32,056 nucleotides of DNA from a virus, in the IMG/VR virus record IMGVR_UViG_3300028025_000016, positions 1-32,056 of that record; one strand, given 5' to 3'. Under the pieces are notes generated by a model. That model was not told the origin of the DNA. It saw only the letters and a list, made by a program, of their open reading frames with translations, and ran no database searches. The first letter of the stretch is position 1. Each line of letters begins with the position of its first letter. Below, in pieces: positions 23,793 to 32,056 of this stretch. Both the position numbers and the translations under genes were made by a program.

Positions 23793-24340
23793 TGGAATTT
23801 TCAACAGATAACCAAAAAATCAGAATTGCTATTTTAGCTTTTATTGCAGGGGTGATTTTAGCTTTTATAGTTTTTCCTAGACCTGAGCAGGAGACAGTCT
23901 ACAAGTTTGAAACGAAGGTAGAAAGTGACACAATTTACACTCGAGTAGTGGATACTATTTATGTGCCAAAAACCAAGATCAAAACGGAAGTTTTAAGGGA
24001 TACAGTCCTAATTGATTTTAAGCCTCGAATAAGCCTTTTTAAGGCCTCCATTCCTTCAGAGTATGGAAGTACCCATGTGAGCGGTGAAGTCCTTGGAGAA
24101 GTCCTAAAAATGACTGCTACAAATGATTTCAAGATTCCCGTGGTGACCAACACGATCACGGAAACAAAAACAGAGACAATTATCAAGAAACCCAAGGGGA
24201 TATATGTAGGCGCAAGCATCAATTCCCTTTCTGATCCTGGCGCAAAAGTTTCCTATCTGGACAATAAATATTTGTTTCAATACGGATATCAACCTGTGAC
24301 AAAAATTCACACTTTGGGAATCTCTAAAAAGCTTTTCTAG
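23789..24340 (+). CDS. Inner-membrane-anchored periplasmic protein, possible spanin
   Basis: The 183-aa product has one N-terminal membrane helix (about residues 12-29, IAILAFIAGVILAFIVF) followed by a long Thr/Lys/Glu-rich extended region (30-130) that would lie in the periplasm. The end is a block of short beta strands (KGIYVGASINSL to YLFQYGYQPVTKIHTLGI) finishing in Phe. A terminal aromatic residue on a strand is typical of outer-membrane targeting. A protein anchored at one end and outer-membrane-like at the other, next to holin and endolysin genes, fits a one-piece spanin. This role is inferred. Confidence 0.55.
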   Translation: MMEFSTDNQKIRIAILAFIAGVILAFIVFPRPEQETVYKFETKVESDTIYTRVVDTIYVPKTKIKTEVLRDTVLIDFKPRISLFKASIPSEYGSTHVSGEVLGEVLKMTATNDFKIPVVTNTITETKTETIIKKPKGIYVGASINSLSDPGAKVSYLDNKYLFQYGYQPVTKIHTLGISKKLF

Positions 24341-24341
24341 T

Positions 24342-24587
24342 ATGTGGATAGAAATAGATGTAATGTTAGCAGGTAGCACGATGGACTGGAAAGAACTAGG
24401 CCTAGATGTCAAACATGAATTTGTTAGGCGCATGGTGAGGGTGGATGATATCGCCTATGTACAGGAGTTGGTACACGATATTCAGGTGATCTACTTCTAT
24501 GACAAAACTTCCTGCCTACTTCGGGGTACCTATACTGAGATCCGGGATGAACTCCTACACCTAGATCAGGAAGGGCAGCTAGACTAA
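24342..24587 (+). CDS. Hypothetical protein, 81 aa
   Basis: Acidic product (MWIEIDVMLAGSTMDWKEL, then VRVDDIAYVQELVHDIQVIYFYDKTSCLL) with no recognised motif. It starts 1 base after the preceding stop and is the last plus-strand gene before the convergent minus-strand operon. The 43 bp after it hold only a weak ATTCG/CGAAT hairpin (24588-24606), not a convincing terminator. Confidence 0.6.
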   Translation: MWIEIDVMLAGSTMDWKELGLDVKHEFVRRMVRVDDIAYVQELVHDIQVIYFYDKTSCLLRGTYTEIRDELLHLDQEGQLD

Positions 24588-24630
24588 TTCGAAAAAAATC
24601 CGAATAAGCGTAGACAATTTGTCGACAGTT

Positions 24631-24828
24631 CTATTCATTTTTTTTGACTATATCCTGAAGCTGAGTCCAGATCTGTGACTGCGCATCACCCCAATACATA
24701 TCACACTTTCCATCTTTGAAGGGTGGGGTAATGAAGTAGGATTGATAGATTCCCGGCTTAGCGGTAAACCTATAGCATCCTTCTTTGTAGGGACAATTTG
24801 TCCCCATGCACATCGTGATATCAGGCAT
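24631..24828 (-). CDS. Cys-rich zinc-ribbon-like protein, 65 aa
   Basis: The minus-strand product has four cysteines (C7, C12, C18, C42) in MCMGTNCPYKEGCYRF and DGKCDMYWGD, a likely small metal-binding fold, and a helical tail (IWTQLQDIVKKNE). A block like PPFKDGKCDMYW recurs in Bacteroidota phages. It is the last gene of a three-gene minus-strand operon. An imperfect-palindrome 11-mer (GACAATTTGTC) occurs within its start region and again just beyond its stop. Confidence 0.7.
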   Translation of the reverse strand: MPDITMCMGTNCPYKEGCYRFTAKPGIYQSYFITPPFKDGKCDMYWGDAQSQIWTQLQDIVKKNE

Positions 24829-24903
24829 GATTATTCATTCATTAGTTTATTTTTTCTGTTTAATGCGTAGGATATCTTACATTCTACTCCCTTTTTGTAA
24901 ACT

Positions 24904-25167
24904 CTATTTAACTTTATCCTGAATCTTCAGCAGGACTAGGTAGCCTATAAGATCATTAATGACATCTTCATCATCCTTTTCAAGGCTGCCATTCTTTATT
25001 CTTTTAAGTTTGTCATCTATCCTGACCAGTAGTCCTTCTTTTGCGGACAACTGACTGAACACACCCAAGGGTTCAAGGGCAGAATTGCCGTACTTCAGAT
25101 TTTTGTTGATAAGCATTTCACGAATGCTCAGAAGATAGATGGATACTAGATGTGAAAAATCATTCAT
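24904..25167 (-). CDS. DUF1599 / Nmad1-like protein
   Basis: The 87-aa helical product carries NKNLKYGNSALEPLGVFS (residues 22-39), GLLVRIDDKLKRIKNGS (45-61) and EDVINDLIGYLVLL (67-80). This is the signature of the DUF1599 family, named nucleotide modification-associated domain 1 because it clusters with DNA or nucleotide modification genes. It may act on or sense modified nucleotides. A DNA methyltransferase is present at 2592 but in a distant operon. It is the second gene of the minus-strand unit, 11 bp after the first gene's stop. Confidence 0.78.
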   Translation of the reverse strand: MNDFSHLVSIYLLSIREMLINKNLKYGNSALEPLGVFSQLSAKEGLLVRIDDKLKRIKNGSLEKDDEDVINDLIGYLVLLKIQDKVK

Positions 25168-25178
25168 TGTATAATGAT

Positions 25179-25430
25179 TTAGCCTGCTGATTCATGATGC
25201 TGTCGGAAGGATTTAAATCTATCCCCTTTTAGGTATTGACTTGATTTAAACTTTGACCTGCCCTTCTTAACCAAGCAGCCATCTTCAAACAGAATGTAGA
25301 ACTCATTTTCTGCCGTTACTTGATTAATAGAAGTGTATTCTATCCACCATTCCTGTGGCTTGCGGTTTTCATCTATTACTCTGGAGGCTTTACCGTATCC
25401 AAATGGGTTCAAAATCTCTGATTCTTCCAT
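25179..25430 (-). CDS. Hypothetical protein, first gene of minus-strand operon
   Basis: The product (MEESEILNPFGYGKASRV, then EWWIEYTSINQ, NEFYILFEDGCLVKKGRSK and KGDRFKSFRQ) resembles small Bacteroidota phage proteins with a WWIEYTSI block; function unknown. I start it at 25430 because conserved-looking sequence begins there. A start at 25484 would add 18 residues (MRFFSKLIFKPYNLQEKT) and cannot be excluded, as both ATGs follow A-rich leaders. The promoter must lie in the divergent region 25431-25573, but no clear TAnnTTTG box is seen on this strand. Confidence 0.65.
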   Translation of the reverse strand: MEESEILNPFGYGKASRVIDENRKPQEWWIEYTSINQVTAENEFYILFEDGCLVKKGRSKFKSSQYLKGDRFKSFRQHHESAG

Positions 25431-25517
25431 CGTTTTTTCTTGCAAGTTATAGGGTTTAAAAATCAGCTTTGAAAAAAATCTCATTTTTTGTTGAAAATAT
25501 TTTCTAAAATGTTTTTT

Positions 25518-25544
25518 ATTCTAATTTATTTATTCGATATTTGA
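25518..25544 (+). promoter_or_regulatory. Early promoter, copy A of a repeated bipartite element
   Basis: ATTCTAATTTATTT (25518-25531), 4 nt, then GATATTTGA (25536-25544). The second block is one mismatch from the Bacteroidota -7 box TAnnTTTG. Exactly the same two blocks at the same spacing occur at 28275-28301. It faces the gene at 25574. Confidence 0.65.
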
Positions 25545-25573
25545 TTCATAATTAACCCTTAACCAAAAACAAA

Positions 25574-25852
25574 ATGAAAAATTTAGATCAAAAAATTCAA
25601 GAAATTAAAGAAGGCGATTTGCTAGCTTTCAGTACTTCCGATTCTTTTAAAGGAGCAGGTTACCTAGTAGAATTTGTTACAGAAAAAGCAATAAAGGTAG
25701 ATGGTGAATGGATACCTAAGAGCCAAATAGTAGAAATTGACCTTGCTGTAAAATTTAATGGAGGAATAGAATGCAAGGATATTCAATTAAATTCTTGGTT
25801 TGATGACAAACTCTGTAAAGACATGCATAAAAAAGCAAAGTGGGCATACTAA
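25574..25852 (+). CDS. Hypothetical early protein, 92 aa
   Basis: First gene of the rightward early operon, right behind promoter copy A. It starts in the A-rich context ACCAAAAACAAAATG that also precedes the gene at 28332. The product (KEGDLLAFSTSDSFKGAGYLVEF, split around residue 20, then KVDGEWIPKSQIVEI) has a small beta-barrel look, and the C-terminal half contains two Cys and a basic end. No family recognised; an early host-takeover role is possible from position only. Confidence 0.65.
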   Translation: MKNLDQKIQEIKEGDLLAFSTSDSFKGAGYLVEFVTEKAIKVDGEWIPKSQIVEIDLAVKFNGGIECKDIQLNSWFDDKLCKDMHKKAKWAY

Positions 25853-25864
25853 AATAAAAACCAA

Positions 25865-26119
25865 ATGAACTACGAAACAGAAAATTTCCACGATCAAGAG
25901 ATCACATTCACCTATGAAGGAGAAGACTACCTTTGGATAGGTGACTACACAATCGAACACACCGGGGAAGATGAAAGCGAATTCGCTCCTGCCTACGGGG
26001 AGATGGAAATCACCATTGAGTATACTAGAAGCCTGTCATCATATGAGCATGGGTATGAGGTCATCCCTACCCGGTCTATGCTTATGGAACTAGAACTAGA
26101 AATTGAAAGAAACTATTAA
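25865..26119 (+). CDS. Hypothetical acidic protein, 84 aa
   Basis: Very acidic product (about 20 Glu or Asp in 84) with alternating hydrophobic residues in its first half (EITFTYEGEDYLWIGDYTI, then GEMEITIEYTRS). It ends in a helix (MLMELELEIERNY). The overall charge could suggest a DNA mimic, but there is no specific support. It lies 12 bp after the preceding gene in the early operon. Confidence 0.65.
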   Translation: MNYETENFHDQEITFTYEGEDYLWIGDYTIEHTGEDESEFAPAYGEMEITIEYTRSLSSYEHGYEVIPTRSMLMELELEIERNY

Positions 26120-26137
26120 CCAAAACCAAATAAACAA

Positions 26138-26689
26138 ATGGAAAGATCACCAAGTATCCAGAACCTTACCCAAGGCCTAGCCAAGTTTCACGCTATGGTA
26201 GGGCGAATCTCGAAGGACGCAAAGAACCCGTTCTTCAAAAGCAATTACGCAAGCCTTCCGCATATCATTACGGAAGTTTCAGAACCACTAGAAAAGGCAG
26301 GCTTGATTCTTAGCCAATTCCCAAACGGGGATGGGCTAACAACCATGCTAATTCACGCAGATAGTGGGGAGTTTATTTCAGCTACCTACACCCTTCAGGT
26401 GGTTAGACAAAACGATCCACAGGCTCAGGGGTCTGCGATCAGCTACGCAAGAAGGTACGCAATTACAAGCGTTCTAAACCTAGCCATATCAGATGATGAT
26501 GCGGAGGCAGCTATGCGCCCGGTAAGGCAGGCACCAACACCTAGCAAGATGGCACCTACAGAAGCGCAATTTGCAGGCATAATTCAATACTTGAACGGAA
26601 CTCCAGAGCAGCAAAAAACAGCCAAGGAGGCACTAAAAAAATATACCTTAACCAAAGATCAAACAGAAATACTTGACGGGCTACTATGA
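26138..26689 (+). CDS. erf: ERF-family single-strand annealing recombinase
   Basis: The 183-aa product matches the ERF superfamily: NLTQGLAKFHAMVGRISKDA, KNPFFKSNYASLPHI (residues 27-41), and the conserved block QGSAISYARRYAITSVLNL followed by an acidic ISDDDAEA. ERF proteins anneal complementary ssDNA and support phage recombination or genome circularisation. It likely works with the SSB-like protein (1312) and the RusA resolvase (30721). The C-terminal part after residue 135 is a Pro/Ala linker and helices, shorter than in larger ERF proteins. Confidence 0.9.
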   Translation: MERSPSIQNLTQGLAKFHAMVGRISKDAKNPFFKSNYASLPHIITEVSEPLEKAGLILSQFPNGDGLTTMLIHADSGEFISATYTLQVVRQNDPQAQGSAISYARRYAITSVLNLAISDDDAEAAMRPVRQAPTPSKMAPTEAQFAGIIQYLNGTPEQQKTAKEALKKYTLTKDQTEILDGLL

Positions 26690-26931
26690 ATATTGTAAAT
26701 GTACTTGTACCAAATGCGTACAAATTGAAAAAAAGAAAGGATGGTACTTTTATATCTGTAATTGTAGATGAAGAAATAGATCCTTTTAATGTAGAATTTA
26801 TAGGCGGTGACTGTATCCAAATTGATACAAACGAAATGGCATACATTACCTTATCAATAGATAACCTTTACCAGATTATTGATTTGATTGAAGCAGCAGA
26901 ATACAAATACTCTAAACAAAGAAAAAAATGA
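26686..26931 (+). CDS. Hypothetical protein, 81 aa
   Basis: The product begins NIVNVLVPNAYKLKKRKDG, with beta strands to about residue 45 and a helical end (YQIIDLIEAAEYKYSKQRKK) that is strongly basic. It overlaps both the ERF stop and the Gp157 start by 4 bp (ATGA), placing it inside the recombination module. The gene is more AT-rich than its neighbours. No family recognised. Confidence 0.65.
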   Translation: MNIVNVLVPNAYKLKKRKDGTFISVIVDEEIDPFNVEFIGGDCIQIDTNEMAYITLSIDNLYQIIDLIEAAEYKYSKQRKK

Positions 26932-27410
26932 ACCTATATGAAATCACACAGGAGGCGCAGTATTTAGCTGCGCTTCTTGAAACCGAAGAACTCACTCCAG
27001 AATTAGAAGCAGAACTTTTAATCAATCAGGAGCAGCTACAGATCAAAGGCATCAACTATGCTAAGGTGATCAGCAATTACCAAGGGGAAAGCGACCAGAT
27101 AGACGCTGAAATTAAGCGACTCAAGGCGATGAAAGAAAGCCGGGATAATAAGGTCACATGGTTAACAGAAAGCCTCAAGAAAGCCATGCTAATAAGCGGA
27201 ATCGAGAAGATAGAAAGCCCCCTATTCAAGATATCATTGAGAAGATCTGAGGCGGTGGAAGTAGATATACCCGAAGCTTTGCCCGTAGATTGGCAGGTCA
27301 AGAAGGTAATGATCACAGCAGACAAAGTAGCGATCAAGAAAGCAATCAAGGAAGGCTATTCAATAACCGGTGCAAGGCTAGTAGAAAATTTTAACCTGCA
27401 AATCAAATGA
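26928..27410 (+). CDS. Siphovirus Gp157-family protein
   Basis: The 160-aa product has the Gp157 layout: an N-terminal helical region (MNLYEITQEAQYLAALLE), a coiled middle with INYAKVISNYQGESDQIDAE and IKRLKAMKESRDNKVTWLTE, then a beta C-terminal part with PLFKISLRRSEAVEVD and YSITGARLVEN. Gp157 proteins lie next to ERF or RecT-type recombinases in many siphoviruses. Some have been linked to phage resistance or recombination, but their activity is not settled. Confidence 0.85.
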   Translation: MNLYEITQEAQYLAALLETEELTPELEAELLINQEQLQIKGINYAKVISNYQGESDQIDAEIKRLKAMKESRDNKVTWLTESLKKAMLISGIEKIESPLFKISLRRSEAVEVDIPEALPVDWQVKKVMITADKVAIKKAIKEGYSITGARLVENFNLQIK

Positions 27411-27604
27411 AAAAGACGGCAGTTGATTACCTATTTGAAAAACTTTGGGGAATCCATAAGGATAAATTCACTTGGCAAATGATTTTGAAAGAAGCCAAAA
27501 AAAAACATAAAAAAGAAATAATCGATGCTTTCAAGGCGGGTGCTTTTTATGAAGGTTATGAATTAGAAGCTGAACAATATTATTTTGAAAAATACGAAAA
27601 CTAA
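27407..27604 (+). CDS. Small conserved phage protein, tandem copy 1
   Basis: The 65-aa product (MKKTAVDYLFEKLWG, then ILKEAKKKHKKEIIDAFKAG and LEAEQYYFEKYEN) shares its layout with the next gene: TAV-x-x-LF at the start, a Lys-rich central helix, and AEQYY near the end. The two look like a tandem duplication of a family widespread in Bacteroidota phages, function unknown. ATGA overlap with Gp157. Confidence 0.72.
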   Translation: MKKTAVDYLFEKLWGIHKDKFTWQMILKEAKKKHKKEIIDAFKAGAFYEGYELEAEQYYFEKYEN

Positions 27605-27612
27605 ATAATCAA

Positions 27613-27819
27613 ATGAAACAGACAGCAGTAGAATTGCTATTCAATGAAATTGATATGCAATATCCTGAAATTAATTTAAGGTCAAAAGAATGGCTTTTTG
27701 AAAAAGCCAAAGAGATGGAGAAGCAGCAGATAATTAAAGCATGGATGGCAAACGATTATCCATTACAAAGAATATGGGCAGCTGAACAGTACTACAAAGA
27801 AACCTACGGAGAAATATGA
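27613..27819 (+). CDS. Small conserved phage protein, tandem copy 2
   Basis: The 68-aa product (MKQTAVELLFNEIDMQYPEI, then WLFEKAKEMEKQQIIKAWMA and AAEQYYKETYGEI) is a diverged paralogue of the preceding gene, keeping KxTAVxxLF and AEQYY. The two genes are 8 bp apart. It ends in an ATGA overlap with a small gene at 27816. Confidence 0.72.
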   Translation: MKQTAVELLFNEIDMQYPEINLRSKEWLFEKAKEMEKQQIIKAWMANDYPLQRIWAAEQYYKETYGEI

Positions 27820-27962
27820 AGCCATACCTATACCTAGGAAAATTTATTCAGAGACCCGGTGATCTAGCCCCCAAGGGGGTTAGGTCTACCTACCAAACTG
27901 AAAAGCTACCTTTTAACGAAACCTTTGAAAGAATATGGCAAATTGTAAACACGAAAGCCTAG
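27816..27962 (+). CDS. Small hypothetical protein, 48 aa
   Basis: A short frame begins on an ATGA overlap and ends 28 bp inside the next gene. The product (MKPYLYLGKFIQRPGDLAPK, ending ERIWQIVNTKA) has no known motif. Its coding sequence contains a 7-bp GC hairpin (27865-27882, CCCC-CAAG-GGGG core) that could attenuate transcription or translation before the HTH gene. The overlaps support it as real. Confidence 0.6.
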   Translation: MKPYLYLGKFIQRPGDLAPKGVRSTYQTEKLPFNETFERIWQIVNTKA

Positions 27963-28264
27963 TGCCATTGGTACGGGAACTATATACCCAAGGGAATACA
28001 AAGCACCAGATCGCTGAGATGATGGGGATCAGGATAACTACGGTTAACTACATTCTGTACAACATTCTTGAAGTATCAAGCTATAACCCTAGGGCGAACC
28101 TAGTAAACGAGATGCCAAGGGAACTAGTGAACCGGGTAGTGACACTATCCTCTTGGGGGTACTCCAAGAAAGAAATCGCAGAAGATCTAGAAATCAAATT
28201 TAAGCTAGTAGCGGATCTAGTAAAGGAGGCTACAGATAAAAAATTGATTCAAAAATTATTGTGA
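27935..28264 (+). CDS. Double helix-turn-helix regulator (putative)
   Basis: The 109-aa product contains two HTH-like units: residues about 9-40 (LVRELYTQGNTKHQIAEMMG, then ITTVNYIL) and about 62-95 (ELVNRVVTLSSWGYSKKEIA, then EIKFKLVADLV). Each has the turn pattern of homeodomain-like or resolvase-type HTHs. It is probably a DNA-binding regulator of early genes. The gene ends just before promoter copy B, which it might control. It overlaps the upstream small gene by 28 bp. Confidence 0.68.
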   Translation: MANCKHESLVPLVRELYTQGNTKHQIAEMMGIRITTVNYILYNILEVSSYNPRANLVNEMPRELVNRVVTLSSWGYSKKEIAEDLEIKFKLVADLVKEATDKKLIQKLL

Positions 28265-28270
28265 AATATT

Positions 28271-28301
28271 TTGGATTCTAATTTATTTCTAAGATATTTG
28301 A
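28271..28301 (+). promoter_or_regulatory. Early promoter, copy B, with -33 box and dyad
   Basis: A TTG (28271-28273, within TTTTGG) lies 19 nt before GATATTTG (28293-28300), close to the Bacteroidota -33/-7 arrangement. The stretch 28275-28301 repeats copy A at 25518. The -7 box starts a small dyad, GATAT-TTGAC-ATATC (28293-28307), that may be an operator. Confidence 0.7.
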
Positions 28302-28331
28302 CATATCATTTAACTCTAACCAAATAACAAA

Positions 28332-28433
28332 ATGAAAAAAGCACTTCAGATCATTGGCAAAATCCTTTACACGATCCTTGCCTTATCACCCATCTTCGCC
28401 CTTGGCTACATGCTAGGTCTTAAATTATTGTAA
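28332..28433 (+). CDS. 33-aa membrane peptide
   Basis: A short gene right after promoter copy B, starting in the context AACAAAATG. The product is a basic N-terminus plus one hydrophobic helix (MKKALQIIGK, then ILYTILALSPIFALGYML). It is too short to have been listed by common gene-length cut-offs. The strong promoter and matching start context suggest it is expressed early, possibly acting at the host membrane (for example superinfection or excluding competitors), but no function is proven. Confidence 0.6.
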   Translation: MKKALQIIGKILYTILALSPIFALGYMLGLKLL

Positions 28434-28453
28434 ACCAAAAACCAAAATCCAAA

Positions 28454-28759
28454 ATGGAAAATCTAAAAATCAAAACCCTCAGAACAGTAGATGTGGAATC
28501 TGAATTTACCCTATCTACCTGCTTCACTATTAATCAGTACACTCACTACAAGCTGATAGACAAAAATACTAGCCTAGCTGTAACCTTCTACCCTAGCAGT
28601 AAGGAAAGTATTTTGGCTCTGGAGTTATTCCCTAGCATCCGCTTGGAGAATTTACGCTATGTGCAGTATGTGGTCAAGCCTGAGAACTATCTGGAGATCA
28701 CAGAAGAAGAATTCAATAAGCATTTAAACGAGGCTAAAAAATTCATTTTGTCCCTATGA
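28454..28759 (+). CDS. Hypothetical protein, 101 aa
   Basis: The product (KIKTLRTVDVESEFTLSTCF, then YTHYKLIDKNTSLAVTFYPS and YLEITEEEFNKHLNEAKKFI) has a beta-rich first half and a helical end. No family recognised. It follows the membrane-peptide gene by 20 bp, starts after AACCAAAATCCAAAATG, and overlaps the next gene by 4 bp. Confidence 0.65.
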   Translation: MENLKIKTLRTVDVESEFTLSTCFTINQYTHYKLIDKNTSLAVTFYPSSKESILALELFPSIRLENLRYVQYVVKPENYLEITEEEFNKHLNEAKKFILSL

Positions 28760-28962
28760 AATCCACCGACTCACAAACCGCTTTGATCAAGGGATGGCTC
28801 CTAAATGGCAGATCTATTACGCAGCTAGATGCCTTGAATATGTTTGGCTGCTTTAGGCTTGCTGCTAGGATAGCTAACATCAGGGAGGAAGGCCTAGACA
28901 TAGTTACGGACATGATCATCGTAAACGATAAGAGGGTAGCAAATTATCGCCTATCCAAATGA
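28756..28962 (+). CDS. Small HTH-domain protein (HTH_39-like)
   Basis: The 68-aa product matches a small HTH family common in phages: SQTALIKGWLLNGRSITQLD (residues 6-25), ALNMFGCFRLAARIANIREEG (26-46) and a C-terminal beta hairpin (DMIIVNDKRVANYRL). The pattern GxSIT-x-x-x-AL-x-x-FG-x-x-RLAARI-x-x-IRxxG is characteristic. It is likely a DNA-binding regulator. ATGA overlaps on both sides. Confidence 0.78.
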   Translation: MKSTDSQTALIKGWLLNGRSITQLDALNMFGCFRLAARIANIREEGLDIVTDMIIVNDKRVANYRLSK

Positions 28963-29108
28963 GAAGGCGAAACCTAACCGAATACGAAAAAGAATTGATC
29001 TTTGAAAGATGGCAGGATCGGATACCTACAAAAGTCATAGCCATAGAATTTGGAGTAAGCTATATGTGCATTTATAACCAACTAAAAAGAAGGAATCTAG
29101 TTGGATAA
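28959..29108 (+). CDS. 49-aa HTH protein
   Basis: A short frame with ATGA overlap at the start. The product (MRRRNLTEYEKELIFERWQD, then PTKVIAIEFGVSYMCIYNQL) is a single homeodomain/resolvase-like HTH with a basic N-terminal arm. It is the third HTH protein in about 1.2 kb. Its last codons contain the -33 TTG of the promoter for the small RNA at 29136, so its transcription and that promoter overlap. Confidence 0.7.
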   Translation: MRRRNLTEYEKELIFERWQDRIPTKVIAIEFGVSYMCIYNQLKRRNLVG

Positions 29109-29129
29109 TGGAAAAAAGTTTTATATTTG
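29101..29129 (+). promoter_or_regulatory. Bacteroidota-type promoter for the 29136 RNA
   Basis: TTG (29101-29103), 18 nt, then a perfect -7 box TATATTTG (29122-29129). The expected start site, about 5-8 nt further, coincides with the first base of a 12-bp hairpin at 29136. Confidence 0.78.
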
Positions 29130-29135
29130 AATATC

Positions 29136-29223
29136 AAATCATTTTTGAGGTAGGAGCCAAAAATGATTTCACAAAGGTTTACTAAACCTAGCCCGGCAGA
29201 CTCCTACCTGTTGGGCTTTTTTA
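29136..29223 (+). ncRNA. Three-hairpin small RNA or attenuator leader with complementary loops
   Basis: Hairpin 1 is a perfect 12-bp stem (AAATCATTTTTG 29136-29147 with CAAAAATGATTT 29158-29169) and a 10-nt purine-rich loop AGGTAGGAGC. Hairpin 2 is a 6-bp stem with a 3-nt loop (29175-29189). Hairpin 3 is a 10-bp terminator stem (29190-29199 with 29208-29217) and loop ACTCCTAC, followed by T6. The loop of hairpin 1 is complementary to that of hairpin 3 over GTAGGAG/CTCCTAC. A promoter sits directly upstream. The terminator ends 10 nt before the next ATG, so the element is either an independent sRNA or a cis attenuator of that gene. No known family recognised. Confidence 0.75.
29190..29223 (+). 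terminator. Intrinsic terminator of the small RNA
   Basis: A 10-bp stem AGCCCGGCAG/CTGTTGGGCT (two G-U pairs), an 8-nt loop and a run of six T residues. It lies between a strong promoter and the ATG at 29233, as expected of an attenuator or an sRNA end. Confidence 0.85.
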
Positions 29224-29232
29224 TTTACAAAA

Positions 29233-29925
29233 ATGCAAGGGAAAAAATCATTTGTTTTGTACACGGATCAAAGGGAAGTTTTTGATGAACTTTCAGATGA
29301 AGATGCCGGTAAGTTGATTAAGCACATTTTTTCTTACGTGAATGATGAAGATCCTATCACAGAGGATAAGCTTATCAAAATTGCTTTTCTCCCTATTAAG
29401 ACTCAGCTTAAAAGAGATCTTAGAATCTGGGATGAAAAGAAAGAGCAAAGGGCTGAGGCAGGAAAGAAAGGAGGTCTAGCAAAAGCTAGCAATGCTAGAA
29501 ATGATTTAGCAAATACTAGCGATGCTATAAGTAGTGTAGCAAAACTAGCTGTAAATGTAAATGGTAATGCTAATGTAAATGCTAATGCAAATGATAATTC
29601 TTTTTTTACTATTTTTTCTACTAGGAGGCTAGGAGGAAAAAATCTATTTGAAGATATGTCTCACATCTATGATCTAAATGATGATCAAATACAAAAGCTA
29701 TATCAGGAATGGGATCTAACACATGAAGGCCAAAACTTTGAAAGTGAAAAGCATTTAAAAAATAGTTTTATCTTGTTTGTAAAAAATAATGCAAACAGAT
29801 TTAAGCAGACAAAAGTCAATAACTATAGGCACAAAGAAGAAAAGCCTAAAAGCAAAAACATATTTGCTGATATGTATCAGGATCTATTAAGAGAGGAAGA
29901 ACTAAAAAAACAATCTAACCAATGA
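29233..29925 (+). CDS. DUF6291-like phage replication-region protein
   Basis: The 230-aa product has the N-terminal DUF6291 pattern: KKSFVLYTDQREVFDELSDE (residues 4-23), AGKLIKHIFSYVNDEDP (25-41), IAFLPIKTQLKRDLRIWDEK (50-69), then basic RAEAGKKGGLAKAS (73-86). An Asn/Ala-rich low-complexity linker (about 107-122) leads to a helical C-terminal domain. Such proteins sit in phage replication regions and are thought to help initiation, but the role is unproven. Expression may depend on read-through of the terminator 10 nt upstream of its start. Confidence 0.75.
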   Translation: MQGKKSFVLYTDQREVFDELSDEDAGKLIKHIFSYVNDEDPITEDKLIKIAFLPIKTQLKRDLRIWDEKKEQRAEAGKKGGLAKASNARNDLANTSDAISSVAKLAVNVNGNANVNANANDNSFFTIFSTRRLGGKNLFEDMSHIYDLNDDQIQKLYQEWDLTHEGQNFESEKHLKNSFILFVKNNANRFKQTKVNNYRHKEEKPKSKNIFADMYQDLLREEELKKQSNQ

Positions 29926-30551
29926 AAGGAATCATTTTGAAGCACCTGCAAAAAATGGAATTTGTTTGCGGACTAAAGCAATTTAAAGAATACAGCCAAG
30001 AAGACGGGGTCGAATTATTAAATTGCTTAAATAAGCTTTTTAGTAGCTACGGATGGATGAATGAAAGCCGTGTAGATTATATACTTCATGCAGGAATGCG
30101 AGGGCAGTATGGGGATTTTTATCACGTAAACGAGAAGAATGTAAGCGTATGGATCAATCAATACTATGCACACCACCAAAGCCAAATAGTGCAGGAGGTA
30201 CAGGCAATGAACCGGGTAGATCGGGAACCTACAGAGGAAGAAATAGCGCAATGGATAGAAATAGGAAAGCAGATATTTAGGGACAACTACCAAAGCGCAA
30301 AGGAAAGCGGATTCTGCAAGGATCTAGCTGAGTGGGGAGGCAATTGGTTTAATAAGTTTCAGGAAAAAGGAATCCTGAAGCCTTGGGAATACCCAGTAGA
30401 AGATATTGAAAAGGATGTCCGCAGGGAGTTAAGGATCAGCACCCGGTACATAGATGAAGTTACCGTAGGGGCGAAGTCAAAGAATAAGATCTGGAAGCTA
30501 TTCATTCTGGAATCAATCAAAGAGAATAGAAACCTAGACAAATTGATATGA
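29922..30551 (+). CDS. Replication-region helical protein, 209 aa
   Basis: The product is almost all helical (MKGIILKHLQKMEFVCGLKQ, then YGWMNESRVDYILHAGMRGQ, VSVWINQYYAHHQSQIVQEV, LAEWGGNWFNKFQEKGIL). The order (short N-terminal helices, a domain with a Tyr-Gly turn, then a Gln-rich helix) recurs in Bacteroidota phage proteins next to DUF6291 genes. A replisome organiser or helicase-loader role is plausible since no other initiator is visible, but no ATPase motif is present. ATGA overlaps both neighbours. Confidence 0.6.
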   Translation: MKGIILKHLQKMEFVCGLKQFKEYSQEDGVELLNCLNKLFSSYGWMNESRVDYILHAGMRGQYGDFYHVNEKNVSVWINQYYAHHQSQIVQEVQAMNRVDREPTEEEIAQWIEIGKQIFRDNYQSAKESGFCKDLAEWGGNWFNKFQEKGILKPWEYPVEDIEKDVRRELRISTRYIDEVTVGAKSKNKIWKLFILESIKENRNLDKLI

Positions 30552-30724
30552 AAAAGTTAATCGAAAATCTAACCCCTAGAAAGCAGGATCTATTCAGCAT
30601 GCAAACCACACTGCTAACTATCTTTACCCTTTTGCACTTTGAATTTGATTGTGGACTGTGGTTTATATTTATCGTAGCTGCGGTTACGATAGGTATGGAC
30701 TTTGTTTATAAGGCCTGCAAATGA
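30548..30724 (+). CDS. Small two-helix membrane protein, 58 aa
   Basis: A short gene fills the gap before RusA, with ATGA overlaps at both ends. The product has a charged N-terminus (MKKLIENLTPRKQDLFSMQT) and two hydrophobic segments (about residues 21-32 and 36-52, LWFIFIVAAVTIGMDFV). Not recognised as a family; a membrane role in early infection or lysis timing is possible. Confidence 0.68.
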   Translation: MKKLIENLTPRKQDLFSMQTTLLTIFTLLHFEFDCGLWFIFIVAAVTIGMDFVYKACK

Positions 30725-31062
30725 TTCAATTTAATATAAACCAGAAACCCCTTTCAGTAAATGAAGCCTACCGGGGTAGAAGATTTCGAACCAAGGCCTA
30801 CATAGAATTTGAAAGATGTATGCTTTTAAAAATGCCAAAGGGCAAAATAGATCCTGAGCAGATGTTGAGGGTTGAACTGTTTTTTGGCTTTTCTACCAAA
30901 TCAGCGGATATTGATAACCCGATCAAAGCTACCTTAGATTTGGCACAGAAAAAGTATGGCTTTAACGATAAAATGGTTTTTGAATTGAATGTCAGAAAGT
31001 GCTTAGTTAAAAAGGGGGACGAATTTATCAGCATGGGGATATTTAAAATGCTACCTTTTTAG
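30721..31062 (+). CDS. rusA: RusA-family Holliday junction resolvase
   Basis: The 113-aa product matches RusA: LSVNEAYRGRRFRTKAY (residues 11-27), a strand region ending FGFSTK, then SADIDNPIKATLDL with the catalytic acidic pair D63 and D65, K69, and a further Asp (D83) in KYGFNDKMVFEL. It cuts four-way DNA junctions made during phage replication and recombination, completing the ERF/SSB-like set. It overlaps the membrane gene by 4 bp and is the last gene of the early operon. Confidence 0.92.
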   Translation: MIQFNINQKPLSVNEAYRGRRFRTKAYIEFERCMLLKMPKGKIDPEQMLRVELFFGFSTKSADIDNPIKATLDLAQKKYGFNDKMVFELNVRKCLVKKGDEFISMGIFKMLPF

Positions 31063-31081
31063 ACAAAATTCACCTATAAAA

Positions 31082-31110
31082 ATAGGATATTAATTTTAAT
31101 CCTATATTTG
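31082..31110 (+). promoter_or_regulatory. Promoter and operator-like inverted repeat of the XRE gene
   Basis: ATAGGAT (31082-31088) and ATCCTAT (31099-31105) form a perfect 7-bp inverted repeat separated by 10 nt. The right arm overlaps the -7 box TATATTTG (31103-31110). A repressor bound here would block RNA polymerase. No -33 TTG is seen at the right spacing. Confidence 0.65.
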
Positions 31111-31126
31111 AATAAATAAAAAACAA

Positions 31127-31327
31127 ATGAGCGTACAAGAAGGACTACTAATCAGAAAATCAAGAAAGAAAAGCGGATACACTCAGCTAGAACTATGCAA
31201 GAAGCTAGGCTTATCTCATGCACCCATCAATCAGGTGGAGAACGGATGGGAGTCAATAAGCCTGTTTAATCTTAGAATGATCTGTGAGGCTATAGGTCTG
31301 GAGGTAGTAATCAAAGAAAAAATATAG
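31127..31327 (+). CDS. XRE-family HTH regulator
   Basis: The 66-aa product is a single Cro/C1-type HTH: GLLIRKSRKKSGYTQLELCK (residues 5-24), KLGLSHAPINQVENGWESIS and LFNLRMICEAIGLEVVI. It has no extra domain, so it is DNA-binding only, probably a dimer. The inverted repeat over its own -7 box suggests autorepression. It has no toxin partner nearby, so a toxin-antitoxin role is unlikely. Its stop codon TAG forms the first bases of the acceptor stem of the tRNA-like RNA that follows. Confidence 0.85.
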   Translation: MSVQEGLLIRKSRKKSGYTQLELCKKLGLSHAPINQVENGWESISLFNLRMICEAIGLEVVIKEKI

Positions 31328-31431
31328 TCATGTGGCGGAATGTAGACGCACATCGGAACTGCTTGTTAAAAGTGATGGCACATTGAGATACCCTATATTT
31401 GTGCGTGCAGGATCAGAGCCTGCCATGACTA
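31326..31431 (+). ncRNA. tRNA-like structured RNA with oversized anticodon loop
   Basis: The fold follows tRNA order. The acceptor stem is 7 bp (AGTCATG 31326-31332 with CATGACT 31424-31430), plus discriminator A31431. TG is at positions 8-9. The D stem is GCG/CGC (31335-31337, 31347-31349) in a class II, Leu-like GTGGCGGAA-GTAGACGC context. The anticodon stem CATCG/TGATG (31351-31355, 31373-31377) carries a 17-nt loop. The variable arm is GCACA/TGTGC (31378-31382, 31400-31404). The T stem is a perfect 5 bp (31407-31411, 31419-31423) with a 7-nt loop ATCAGAG. The large loop, missing GG in the D loop and no encoded CCA argue against an ordinary elongator tRNA. Confidence 0.7.
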
Positions 31432-31434
31432 CAA
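31424..31434 (+). repeat. CATGACTACAA repeat, copy 1 (tRNA-like 3' end)
   Basis: The acceptor 3' strand and following bases. The same 11-mer occurs at 31502-31512 and 31933-31943 (equal to 4-14), so copies 2 and 3 flank the HNH gene. Copies 2 and 3 share a longer 14-mer, TCATGACTACAAAA. Confidence 0.85.
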
Positions 31435-31444
31435 GGCAATTGTT

Positions 31445-31468
31445 GAGCATGGTAGAAATACCATGTTC
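31445..31468 (+). ncRNA. 10-bp hairpin with GAAA tetraloop downstream of the tRNA-like RNA
   Basis: GAGCATGGTA (31445-31454), loop GAAA, TACCATGTTC (31459-31468): 10 bp with one G-U pair, closed by a GNRA tetraloop. No T-run follows, so it is not a terminator. It is probably part of the same structured transcript as the tRNA-like fold. Confidence 0.7.
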
Positions 31469-31500
31469 TTCATTGCTGAATTAAATAAAAGTTCGTATAT

Positions 31501-31514
31501 TCATGACTACAAAA
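31501..31514 (+). repeat. TCATGACTACAAAA repeat, copy 2 (upstream of HNH gene)
   Basis: Identical to 31932-31945 and preceded in both cases by ATATT (one extra G in the right copy). The pair brackets the HNH gene as direct repeats, as a target duplication or recombination junction would. Confidence 0.85.
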
Positions 31515-31524
31515 CGGAATATAT

Positions 31525-31926
31525 ATGAATAGGTTCTTTGATAAAATAGATATGACCGACAGTTGTTGGTTATGGAAAGGAGCATTAAGTCAAGGGTATG
31601 GGATTTTTAAAATAGATAAAAAAACTATTAGTGCTCATAGGTTTTCATATCAAATTCATAAAGGAGAAATACCAGAAGGTGTTTTTGTTTGCCATTCTTG
31701 TGATATTAGAAATTGTGTAAATCCAAATCACTTGTTTTTGGGTAGTCCAAAAGATAATTGGCAAGATGGATTTGATAAAGGTAGAATAAAATTATTAGGA
31801 GGAATAGATACTAGTAAACTTAAAAAACATCCTAGTAAGGGAGCCTACAATAGAGGATGTAGATGTAATGAATGTAAGGCCATTCAAAATATGATGGTAA
31901 AAAGATATAGGTGCAGATTGAAATAA
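31525..31926 (+). CDS. HNH_3-type homing-like endonuclease
   Basis: The 133-aa product has the classic layout: an N-terminal NUMOD4-like CWLWKGALSQGYGIF (residues 14-28), AHRFSYQIHKGEIPEG (37-52), then the HNH core VCHSCDIRNCVNPNHLFLG (C56, H57, C59, C64, N68, H69), and a C-terminal zinc-like GCRCNECK (111-118) in a YNR-x(n)-RYR context. Such genes are mobile and spread by cutting DNA lacking them. It is much more AT-rich than its neighbours, carries no intron or split host gene, and lies between direct 14-bp repeats right next to the tRNA-like RNA. It is therefore probably a recent free-standing insertion. Confidence 0.9.
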   Translation: MNRFFDKIDMTDSCWLWKGALSQGYGIFKIDKKTISAHRFSYQIHKGEIPEGVFVCHSCDIRNCVNPNHLFLGSPKDNWQDGFDKGRIKLLGGIDTSKLKKHPSKGAYNRGCRCNECKAIQNMMVKRYRCRLK

Positions 31927-31929
31927 TAT

Positions 31930-32056
31930 TGTCATGACTACAAAAACAAAATAGAATGCCTAGAATGCTACCCAAATCACCACTAGACTATTCCCTTGAA
32001 ATCCGCTACAGGCTTTCAAGCGGTGAATGGTCTGCATGGATGAATAAGGGAAAAGG
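31930..32056. repeat. Terminal direct repeat, right copy
   Basis: Identical to 1-127. It includes copy 3 of the CATGACTACAA repeat (31933-31943). Join at 31929/1 to restore the circular map. Confidence 0.95.
31956..32056 (+). CDS. Partial second copy of gene 1 (assembly overlap)
   Basis: The first 101 bases of the gene at 27-278 appear again because of the terminal overlap. The contig end cuts the frame off. It is not a separate gene. Confidence 0.9.
   Translation, partial: MPRMLPKSPLDYSLEIRYRLSSGEWSAWMNKGK

Follow-up and report, generated by a model that had tools for sequence, protein, structure and literature searches.

Morons have been described as single coding regions, each with a promoter and a terminator, that lie between genes that are adjacent in related phages (PMC4378225; similarly PMC2147016; papers given here by PMC number are cited for parts of their text), and the acquisition of variable phage genes has been termed mysterious (PMC4378225). 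T4-type phages contain promoter early stem-loops (PeSLs), which are mobile regulatory cassettes linked to gene shuffling (PMC4503421, cited second-hand). In SIRV2 and other archaeal viruses, a near-identical early promoter region precedes small and diverse anti-defence genes, and a repressor was proposed (PMC11065993). In cluster K mycobacteriophages, a repeated element (SAS/ESAS) precedes non-structural genes, with an inverted repeat in about half of the cases (PMC3203893). Here we describe a repeated element, ATTCTAATTTATTT-N4-GATATTTGA, in IMG/VR virus record IMGVR_UViG_3300028025_000016; the window is the whole stretch analysed, positions 1 to 32,056 of that record. As judged from the sequences of relatives, the two copies of the element mark the entrances of two slots where related phages swap small genes, and the repeat has the look of one on-switch common to a set of interchangeable genes, not of a simple duplication. 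Literature searches, which covered open PMC papers, found no description of the element and no paper that combines Flavobacterium phages with promoters, early genes, and transcription.

The repeat and the two accessory-gene slots

The initial annotation, made from the window alone, reported a bipartite element duplicated with identical spacing, and near-identical contexts for the starts of the genes behind it. Both points hold. The two copies are exact, lie on the plus strand at 25518-25544 and 28275-28301, and share the N4 spacing, with N4 letters that are not the same; no third copy is present in the window at up to 3 mismatches. The starts at 25574 and 28332 both lie within ACAAAATG. Two copies were reached in 0 of 100 shuffles. 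Because the pattern was chosen after being seen, we also searched more generally, post hoc, for direct repeats of any exact 14-mer with an exact 9-mer following in register: besides a 127-nt terminal repeat, the pair was the sole match in the window, and none of 200 local resamples gave any. Among the direct-repeat families listed for 24300-32056, the largest (91 nt, 71% identical) has the two copies as its core. From the neighbours ERF, Gp157/Gam, and RusA, we infer that the genes behind the copies are early.

To place the motif in relatives, we used loci from viral contigs: 80 were found via the ERF protein (the best 80 of 428), 33 via a 109-amino-acid (109-aa) helix-turn-helix (HTH) protein, and 48 stretches by an exact pattern scan of the same viral collection. 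Anchor genes oriented 152 of 157 loci. Copies of window stretches (L001 and L002) and distant genome loci (L159-L163) were excluded before counting, L164-L171 are outside the counts, and identical regions were counted once. The gene order is minus-strand 65-, 87-, and 101-aa genes, copy 1, an 84-aa gene, ERF, Gp157/Gam, a 48-aa gene, the 109-aa HTH gene, copy 2, and then 33-aa, 101-aa, HTH_39, and HTH_23 genes. The eight anchor genes are those from the 84-aa gene through HTH_23. At least five of them are present in 136 loci, all with the same order.

Absence of the motif from relatives had been set beforehand as a refutation, and the motif is kept in relatives. All 74 distinct copies (up to 3 mismatches) in the 152 oriented loci are at slot 1 (53 copies) or slot 2 (21 copies), and all of them face the operon direction, with none on the minus strand. 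Of the five loci that could not be oriented, three (L116, L119, and L152) have a copy beside the 101-aa gene, that is, at slot 1, and the other two are L124 and L157 (see below). Across 40 full records there are 39 motif copies, spread over 30 of the records, and a reversed control pattern gave 1 match. Thirty-eight of these 39 copies are in slot-classified loci, and the last, the second copy in G018, is the one at slot 2 of L112. No match to 25480-25600 was found among named phages (blastn against 50,697 phage records, E of 1). The ERF protein was also searched for in GTDB genomes, with a reach limited to close relatives; the 5 loci found have 34-40% identity, and none carries a Bacteroidota label. 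Rfam matched nothing in the window and nothing at gathering level in 10 relatives.

Slot 1 runs from copy 1 to the 84-aa gene, and slot 2 runs from the 109-aa HTH gene to the 33-aa gene. A slot was counted if both of its anchor genes were present (for example, L042 and L043 were left out at slot 1). We took as cargo the complete open reading frames (ORFs) of at least 40 aa and grouped them by BLASTP (E of 0.001, half coverage). Complete cargo ORFs are present in 61 of the 72 distinct regions at slot 1, and the other 11 are empty. Slot 2 holds such ORFs in 31 of 73; another 34 are short and empty, and 8 regions of 239-374 nt hold an ORF that extends past the region and were not assigned as loaded or empty. 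The 98 cargo proteins form 38 families. Sequence comparison shows a conserved promoter region (see below), with the gene behind it replaced by unrelated small genes and six of the families found in both slots. In one locus (L023), slot 1 holds two cargos, each behind its own copy of the motif, and there are three copies in L023 overall. The window itself has a 92-aa gene in slot 1 and an empty slot 2, so promoter 2 would drive the 33-aa core gene and the operon there. The relevant features of the window, with coordinates and strand, are as follows.

25179..25484, minus strand: left boundary of slot 1, a divergent 101-aa gene that is conserved in relatives.
25513..25543, plus strand: promoter 1, with a -33-like TTTT (25513-25516), a 19-bp spacer, and the -7 box GATATTTG (25536-25543); kept at slot 1 of relatives.
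25520..25537, no strand: possible operator dyad 1, TCTAATTTATTTATTCGA, with 6 of 9 symmetric pairs; weak in its class.
25544..25573, plus strand: leader 1, a 30-nt A-rich sequence.
25574..25852, plus strand: slot-1 cargo of the window, a 92-aa protein with a predicted small beta-rich fold and a C-terminal helix.
25865..26689, plus strand: right boundary of slot 1, the 84-aa gene and the ERF single-stranded-DNA-annealing protein (ERF at 26138-26689).
27935..28264, plus strand: left boundary of slot 2, the 109-aa tandem-HTH protein.
28270..28300, plus strand: promoter 2, with TTTG (28270-28273), a 19-bp spacer, and GATATTTG (28293-28300).
28277..28294, no strand: possible operator dyad 2, TCTAATTTATTTCTAAGA, with 5 of 9 symmetric pairs; weak in its class.
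28301..28331, plus strand: leader 2, a 31-nt A-rich sequence.
28332..28433, plus strand: 33-aa core gene directly behind promoter 2 (slot 2 of the window is empty).
28756..28962, plus strand: HTH_39 core gene of the operon behind slot 2.
31127..31327, plus strand: 66-aa HTH_3 (Cro/CI-type) gene, whose type alone makes it a candidate regulator; the canonical box TATATTTG (31103-31110) is in its promoter.

Nearly all of the 38 cargo families are proteins without an assigned function. When one member of each family was scanned, PHROGs, Pfam, PADLOC, and NCBIfam gave matches to 5, 3, 1, and 4 families, respectively, each with one member, and no match in these profile scans named an anti-defence function. 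The strongest matches were to PHROG 10415 (2.6e-15, no function) and to Pfam LPD29 (4.5e-10), and most of the others were weak; the member that matches LPD29 was not pinned down among 5 of the 38 that were re-examined. For the window's 92-aa cargo, the closest relatives are in the same interval of the same phage group (L164, L165, and L166), and more distant relatives (38-47% identity) are in five other viral contigs. In L164, the relative is apparently behind another cargo. No PDB match at an E of 0.001 or better was found for the predicted fold of this protein (mean pLDDT of 84).

Relatives also have further variable insertions at the hth39/hth23 and erf/gp157 junctions, and no copy of the motif was found at these places.

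Promoter class, leader, and hairpin

Among the 20 matches listed of 1184 records, the terminase of the window is nearest to terminases from phages of Flavobacterium psychrophilum (38% identity) and of Bacteroides (36%), and a Bacteroidota host is therefore likely. Promoters of F. johnsoniae have the form TTTG/TAHHTTTG at -33/-7, with the start 4-5 nt past the box and leaders of 33 nt on average; position -12 is T with very few exceptions, the -33 box is weak, and AT-rich motifs at -18 and -28 are stronger than the -33 box (PMC6847099). Each copy of the element has TTTG or TTTT, 19 bp, and GATATTTG, which is the Bacteroidota-type layout save for G at -12. Relative to the -7 box of sigma-ABfr (TAHHTTTG), A at -11, H at -10 and -9, and TTTG are present in both copies, and T at -12 is G. 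At -33, copy 2 has TTTG-N19 and copy 1 has TTTT; the fourth letter is G in 8 of 22 unique cores. The box is 30-42 nt from the ATG in 59 of 62 cases, which suits the 33-nt mean leader of Flavobacterium with a start 4-5 nt past the box.

The initial annotation had proposed a promoter whose -7 box has G for T, and this architecture is conserved in relatives. Counted without selection, GATATT[TC]G is present in 50 of the 61 loaded slot-1 regions, against 1 of the 11 empty ones (Fisher P = 6e-6, ignoring kinship between relatives). The logo and the dyad counts were preselected by GATATT[TC]G, so that G at -12 is not a result in those analyses. Among 55 distinct regions upstream of the HTH_3 gene in these phages, 53 have a promoter with T at -12, and no box could be recognised in the remaining two. 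Therefore, the G box points to a slot-associated type and not to the general promoter of these phages. Within the oriented loci of this phage group, this apparent promoter type was found only at the two slots, and to that extent the earlier proposal of a phage-specific promoter class stands; as the HTH_3 promoters keep T, it does not extend to the phage's promoters in general.

We compared 28 slot-and-family representatives of the GATATTTG class in pairs with different cargo. Despite unrelated cargo, the promoter (-16 to +7 of the -7 box) is on average 86% identical within slot 1 (253 pairs), 80% between slots 1 and 2 (113 pairs), and 80% within slot 2 (10 pairs), and coding nucleotides 4-60 of the same pairs are 36%, 34%, and 34% identical. 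The first 12 nt of the leader are 72%, 63%, and 55% identical for the same three comparisons. A recurrent combination of promoter and leader is exemplified by TTTATTCTAATTTATTTCTTCGATATTTGATTCATCAAACAAGGACATCTAACCAAAACACACC-ATG (L009).

Many cargos are followed by a C/G-rich hairpin (such as GCCC-TTCG-GGGC or GCCCCC-GAAA-GGGGGC), which we counted if it was at most 70 nt past the cargo. It is present in 32 of 61 loaded slot-1 regions and 21 of 31 loaded slot-2 regions (53 of 92 in total). The 370 control junctions (located before erf, gp157, the 48-aa gene, hth39, hth23, and DUF6291) have no such hairpin, and neither do the 11 empty slot-1 regions. The hairpin may be a terminator, an attenuator, or a stabiliser.

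Behind the slot-1 cargo of one contig (L028:6647-6698; L158 is the same contig), a stretch with the core and fold of a hammerhead ribozyme replaces the usual hairpin. It scores 24.5 bits for Rfam Hammerhead_1 and 30.5 bits for RAGATH-1-hammerhead, both under the gathering scores.

Families that are found in both slots give some indication of what moves. In the best slot-1/slot-2 pair, from family 3, the coding DNA is 90% identical, the 20 nt before the ATG and the 30 nt past the stop are each 80% identical, and the interval from -100 to -60 relative to the ATG is 57% identical; the promoter classes differ, with GATATTTG in slot 1 and TAGATTTG in slot 2. This pattern suggests that the leader, gene, and hairpin can move together without the promoter, which stays with the slot, and it is best seen in this one family. 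For families 9 and 15, identity is 81% and 84% in the coding DNA, 80% and 73% past the stop, 70% and 75% in the leader, and 68% at -100 to -60; because the upstream identity is close to that of the leader, the breakpoints are not resolved there. The cross-slot breakpoints of families 0, 4, and 13 are less clear still. The promoter seems to have travelled with the cargo in slot 2 of L062 and also with the second cargo in L023; other members of the L062 group in which slot 2 is empty have no motif.

A possible operator and the competing explanations

The conserved spacer opens with TCTAA and the -7 box opens with GA, which gives a dyad, TCTAA-N8-TTAGA, over the spacer and the box. In L063, a perfect 18-bp palindrome, TCTAACTTATAAGTTAGA, is at this place. 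Slot 2 also has a second (sister) class of promoters, selected by the -7 box TAGNTT[TC]G alone, in which TCTAAACTATTGTTTAGA (8 of 9 pairs) most often runs into TAGATTTG. TCTAA is at the place of the dyad in 20 of 23 sequences of the sister class. The offset of the dyad from the -7 box differs by 2 nt between the classes, and in both of them the G of the half-site coincides with the non-consensus G of the box (at -12 or -10). With 1 mismatch, the dyad occurs at three places in the window, two of which are the copies; with 2 mismatches it occurs 25 times, versus 29 expected by chance, so there is no excess. The suggestion in the initial annotation that the repeat might be a shared operator fares differently in the two classes: among 95 possible centres in the sister class, that of the dyad ranks first over the 23 unique sequences and second over 10 unique cores, whereas in the window's class it ranks fourth of 77. 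These patterns are suggestive of a possible shared operator.

As a candidate to bind the dyad, by type only, we consider the HTH_3 protein, whose gene is present in 88 of 103 loci that reach rusA. The promoter of the HTH_3 gene itself was considered as a possible third operator copy and rejected, because its sequence is different both in the window and in relatives. That promoter (31084-31110) has an inverted repeat of its own, AGGAT-N10-ATCCT, which runs into TATATTTG and is perhaps an autoregulatory operator of the HTH_3 gene.

Taken as a whole, the reading that we favour, and hold to be rather probable, is that each copy is the entrance promoter of an accessory slot, used by the host RNA polymerase, with an operator and with exchange of the cargo. 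The slot-promoter part is well supported, and the steps that involve the operator and ERF are the least certain. Host RNA polymerase of the Bacteroidota sigma-ABfr type would read each copy as a promoter with an A-rich leader, starting 4-5 nt past GATATTTG and leaving a leader of about 25 nt or more. A dimeric HTH protein of the phage would bind the dyad, so that the slot genes answer one signal, and G at -12 would belong to the operator half-site. Cargo would be exchanged by homologous recombination between the near-identical promoter and leader on one side and the hairpin and the leader of the next gene on the other, with possible help from ERF, the annealing protein encoded next door.

A quite possible alternative, which reads the slots in the same way and parts from the favoured explanation on the operator, is that a plain strong host-type promoter precedes the slots and that the spacer is the usual AT-rich motif of Flavobacterium, with no dedicated regulator. 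The AT-rich -18 and -28 motifs of F. johnsoniae, which outdo the -33 box (PMC6847099), agree with this, as do the conservation of the entire upstream region beyond the motif and the low rank of the dyad in the window's class. However, a plain promoter does not call for a G at -12, which is off the host consensus and yet is kept in most loaded slot-1 regions while the HTH_3 promoters have T; nor does it call for TCTAA to keep its place in the sister class despite the 2-nt shift relative to the box. G at -12 would instead be preferred by a phage factor acting with RNA polymerase, such as the 109-aa tandem-HTH protein, if the element is a phage-specific class. This protein weakly matches a phage sigma-factor family and also Sigma70_r4_2, the latter below the curated cut-off, and the motif copies of the oriented loci are only at the slots. 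But its best matches are to other HTH families, its predicted structure (pLDDT of 76) gave no PDB match at an E of 0.001 or better, and its identity drops to about 30% in relatives that have kept the motif in their slot-1 promoter, so we consider this explanation unlikely. We also find it improbable that the likeness of the copies is a relic of recombination, that is, of gene conversion between the slots, with no regulatory meaning. The copies do sit where cargo varies, the slots have cargo families in common, and L023 has three copies; but in the window the surroundings of the copies differ (71% identity over 91 nt), as do the N4 letters, while the core and the spacing stay, and GATATT[TC]G is missing from 10 of the 11 empty slot-1 regions.

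Several observations weigh against the explanation of the copies as slot-entrance promoters with a shared operator. The motif is absent, at the search threshold, from 10 of the 40 full records, and the relatives are not independent: the 72 slot-1 regions fall into 57 clusters (12-mer Jaccard of 0.6). The same 1-mismatch copy is present at L124:869 and L157:4165; as these two contigs have no anchor gene, the motif is not strictly limited to the slot setting. Other promoters precede the cargo in 11 of the 61 loaded slot-1 regions. Outside this count, L165 and L166 have other -7 boxes (TAATTTTG and TAAATTTG) before the relatives of the window's cargo, which is two of the three within the phage group. 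The last 16 nt of the leader before the ATG are less conserved than the promoter (63%, 48%, and 39% identity within slot 1, between slots, and within slot 2). By the rule used, 39 of the 92 loaded slots have no hairpin. The window's own slot-1 cargo is one of them, and there the promoter would therefore be the head of an operon rather than part of an isolated cassette. The T run behind the hairpin is poor, with few T residues, and the hairpin may therefore attenuate or stabilise rather than terminate. The dyad ranks only fourth in the window's class and is imperfect in both window copies (6 and 5 symmetric pairs of 9). Finally, given the near invariance of T at -12 in F. johnsoniae, the G box might be weak or might depend on a helper.

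A more far-reaching version of the slot-promoter explanation, which we regard as doubtful, is that a dedicated counter-host regulon has the element as its common operator-promoter. A single repressor of the phage would control two plug-in slots, the promoter and leader would double as the homology arm for ERF, and the at least 38 families of small proteins would be early host-takeover or anti-defence genes.

Other features, significance, and known systems

Three further features of the window are recorded here. An exact 127-nt direct repeat is at its ends (1-127 and 31930-32056), and the record is therefore probably a complete genome. The adjacent small genes at 27407-27604 and 27613-27819 have similar beginnings (MKKTAVDYLFEKLW and MKQTAVELLFNEID), a resemblance that suggests a tandem duplication; of the 157 loci searched, 20 have a match to the first and 7 to the second. 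Between the HTH_3 gene and a 133-aa ORF, 31332-31480 looks tRNA-like by eye, and neither ARAGORN nor Rfam gave a match.

That the copies head accessory slots, whose contents vary between phages and are shared between the slots, was beyond the reach of the initial annotation. A short DNA address picks out exchangeable genes in uncultivated phages that probably infect Bacteroidota. It turns orphan genes into an ordered set of candidates for tests of anti-defence or host takeover, as with the archaeal viruses (PMC11065993), and the natural recombinants allow the junctions of moron-like exchange to be read.

Like morons, the slot genes are extras between genes that are adjacent in relatives, as 11 of the 72 slot-1 regions and 34 slot-2 regions are empty. 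As to a promoter of their own, GATATT[TC]G heads 50 of the 61 loaded slot-1 regions, but the promoter differs across slots in the clearest pair of shared genes; as to a terminator, a hairpin is behind 53 of the 92 loaded slots and none is behind the window's cargo. Unlike morons, unrelated cargos use one conserved promoter here, at two fixed slots, with six families in both. The PeSLs similarly tie an early promoter and a stem-loop to gene shuffling among related phages (PMC4503421), but here the promoter is of the Bacteroidota type, there are only two slots, and the promoter and the hairpin flank the cargo on opposite sides. The archaeal viruses share with these phages one near-identical promoter region before small, diverse genes that mostly have no assigned function (PMC11065993); the bacterial promoter type, the slots, and the hairpins are different here, and an anti-defence role of the cargo is hypothetical. 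As for SAS/ESAS, the -7 box here ends mostly 30-42 nt upstream of the ATG. Overall, the arrangement is best filed as moron-like with features of PeSLs, and its logic resembles that of the shared early promoter of the archaeal viruses.

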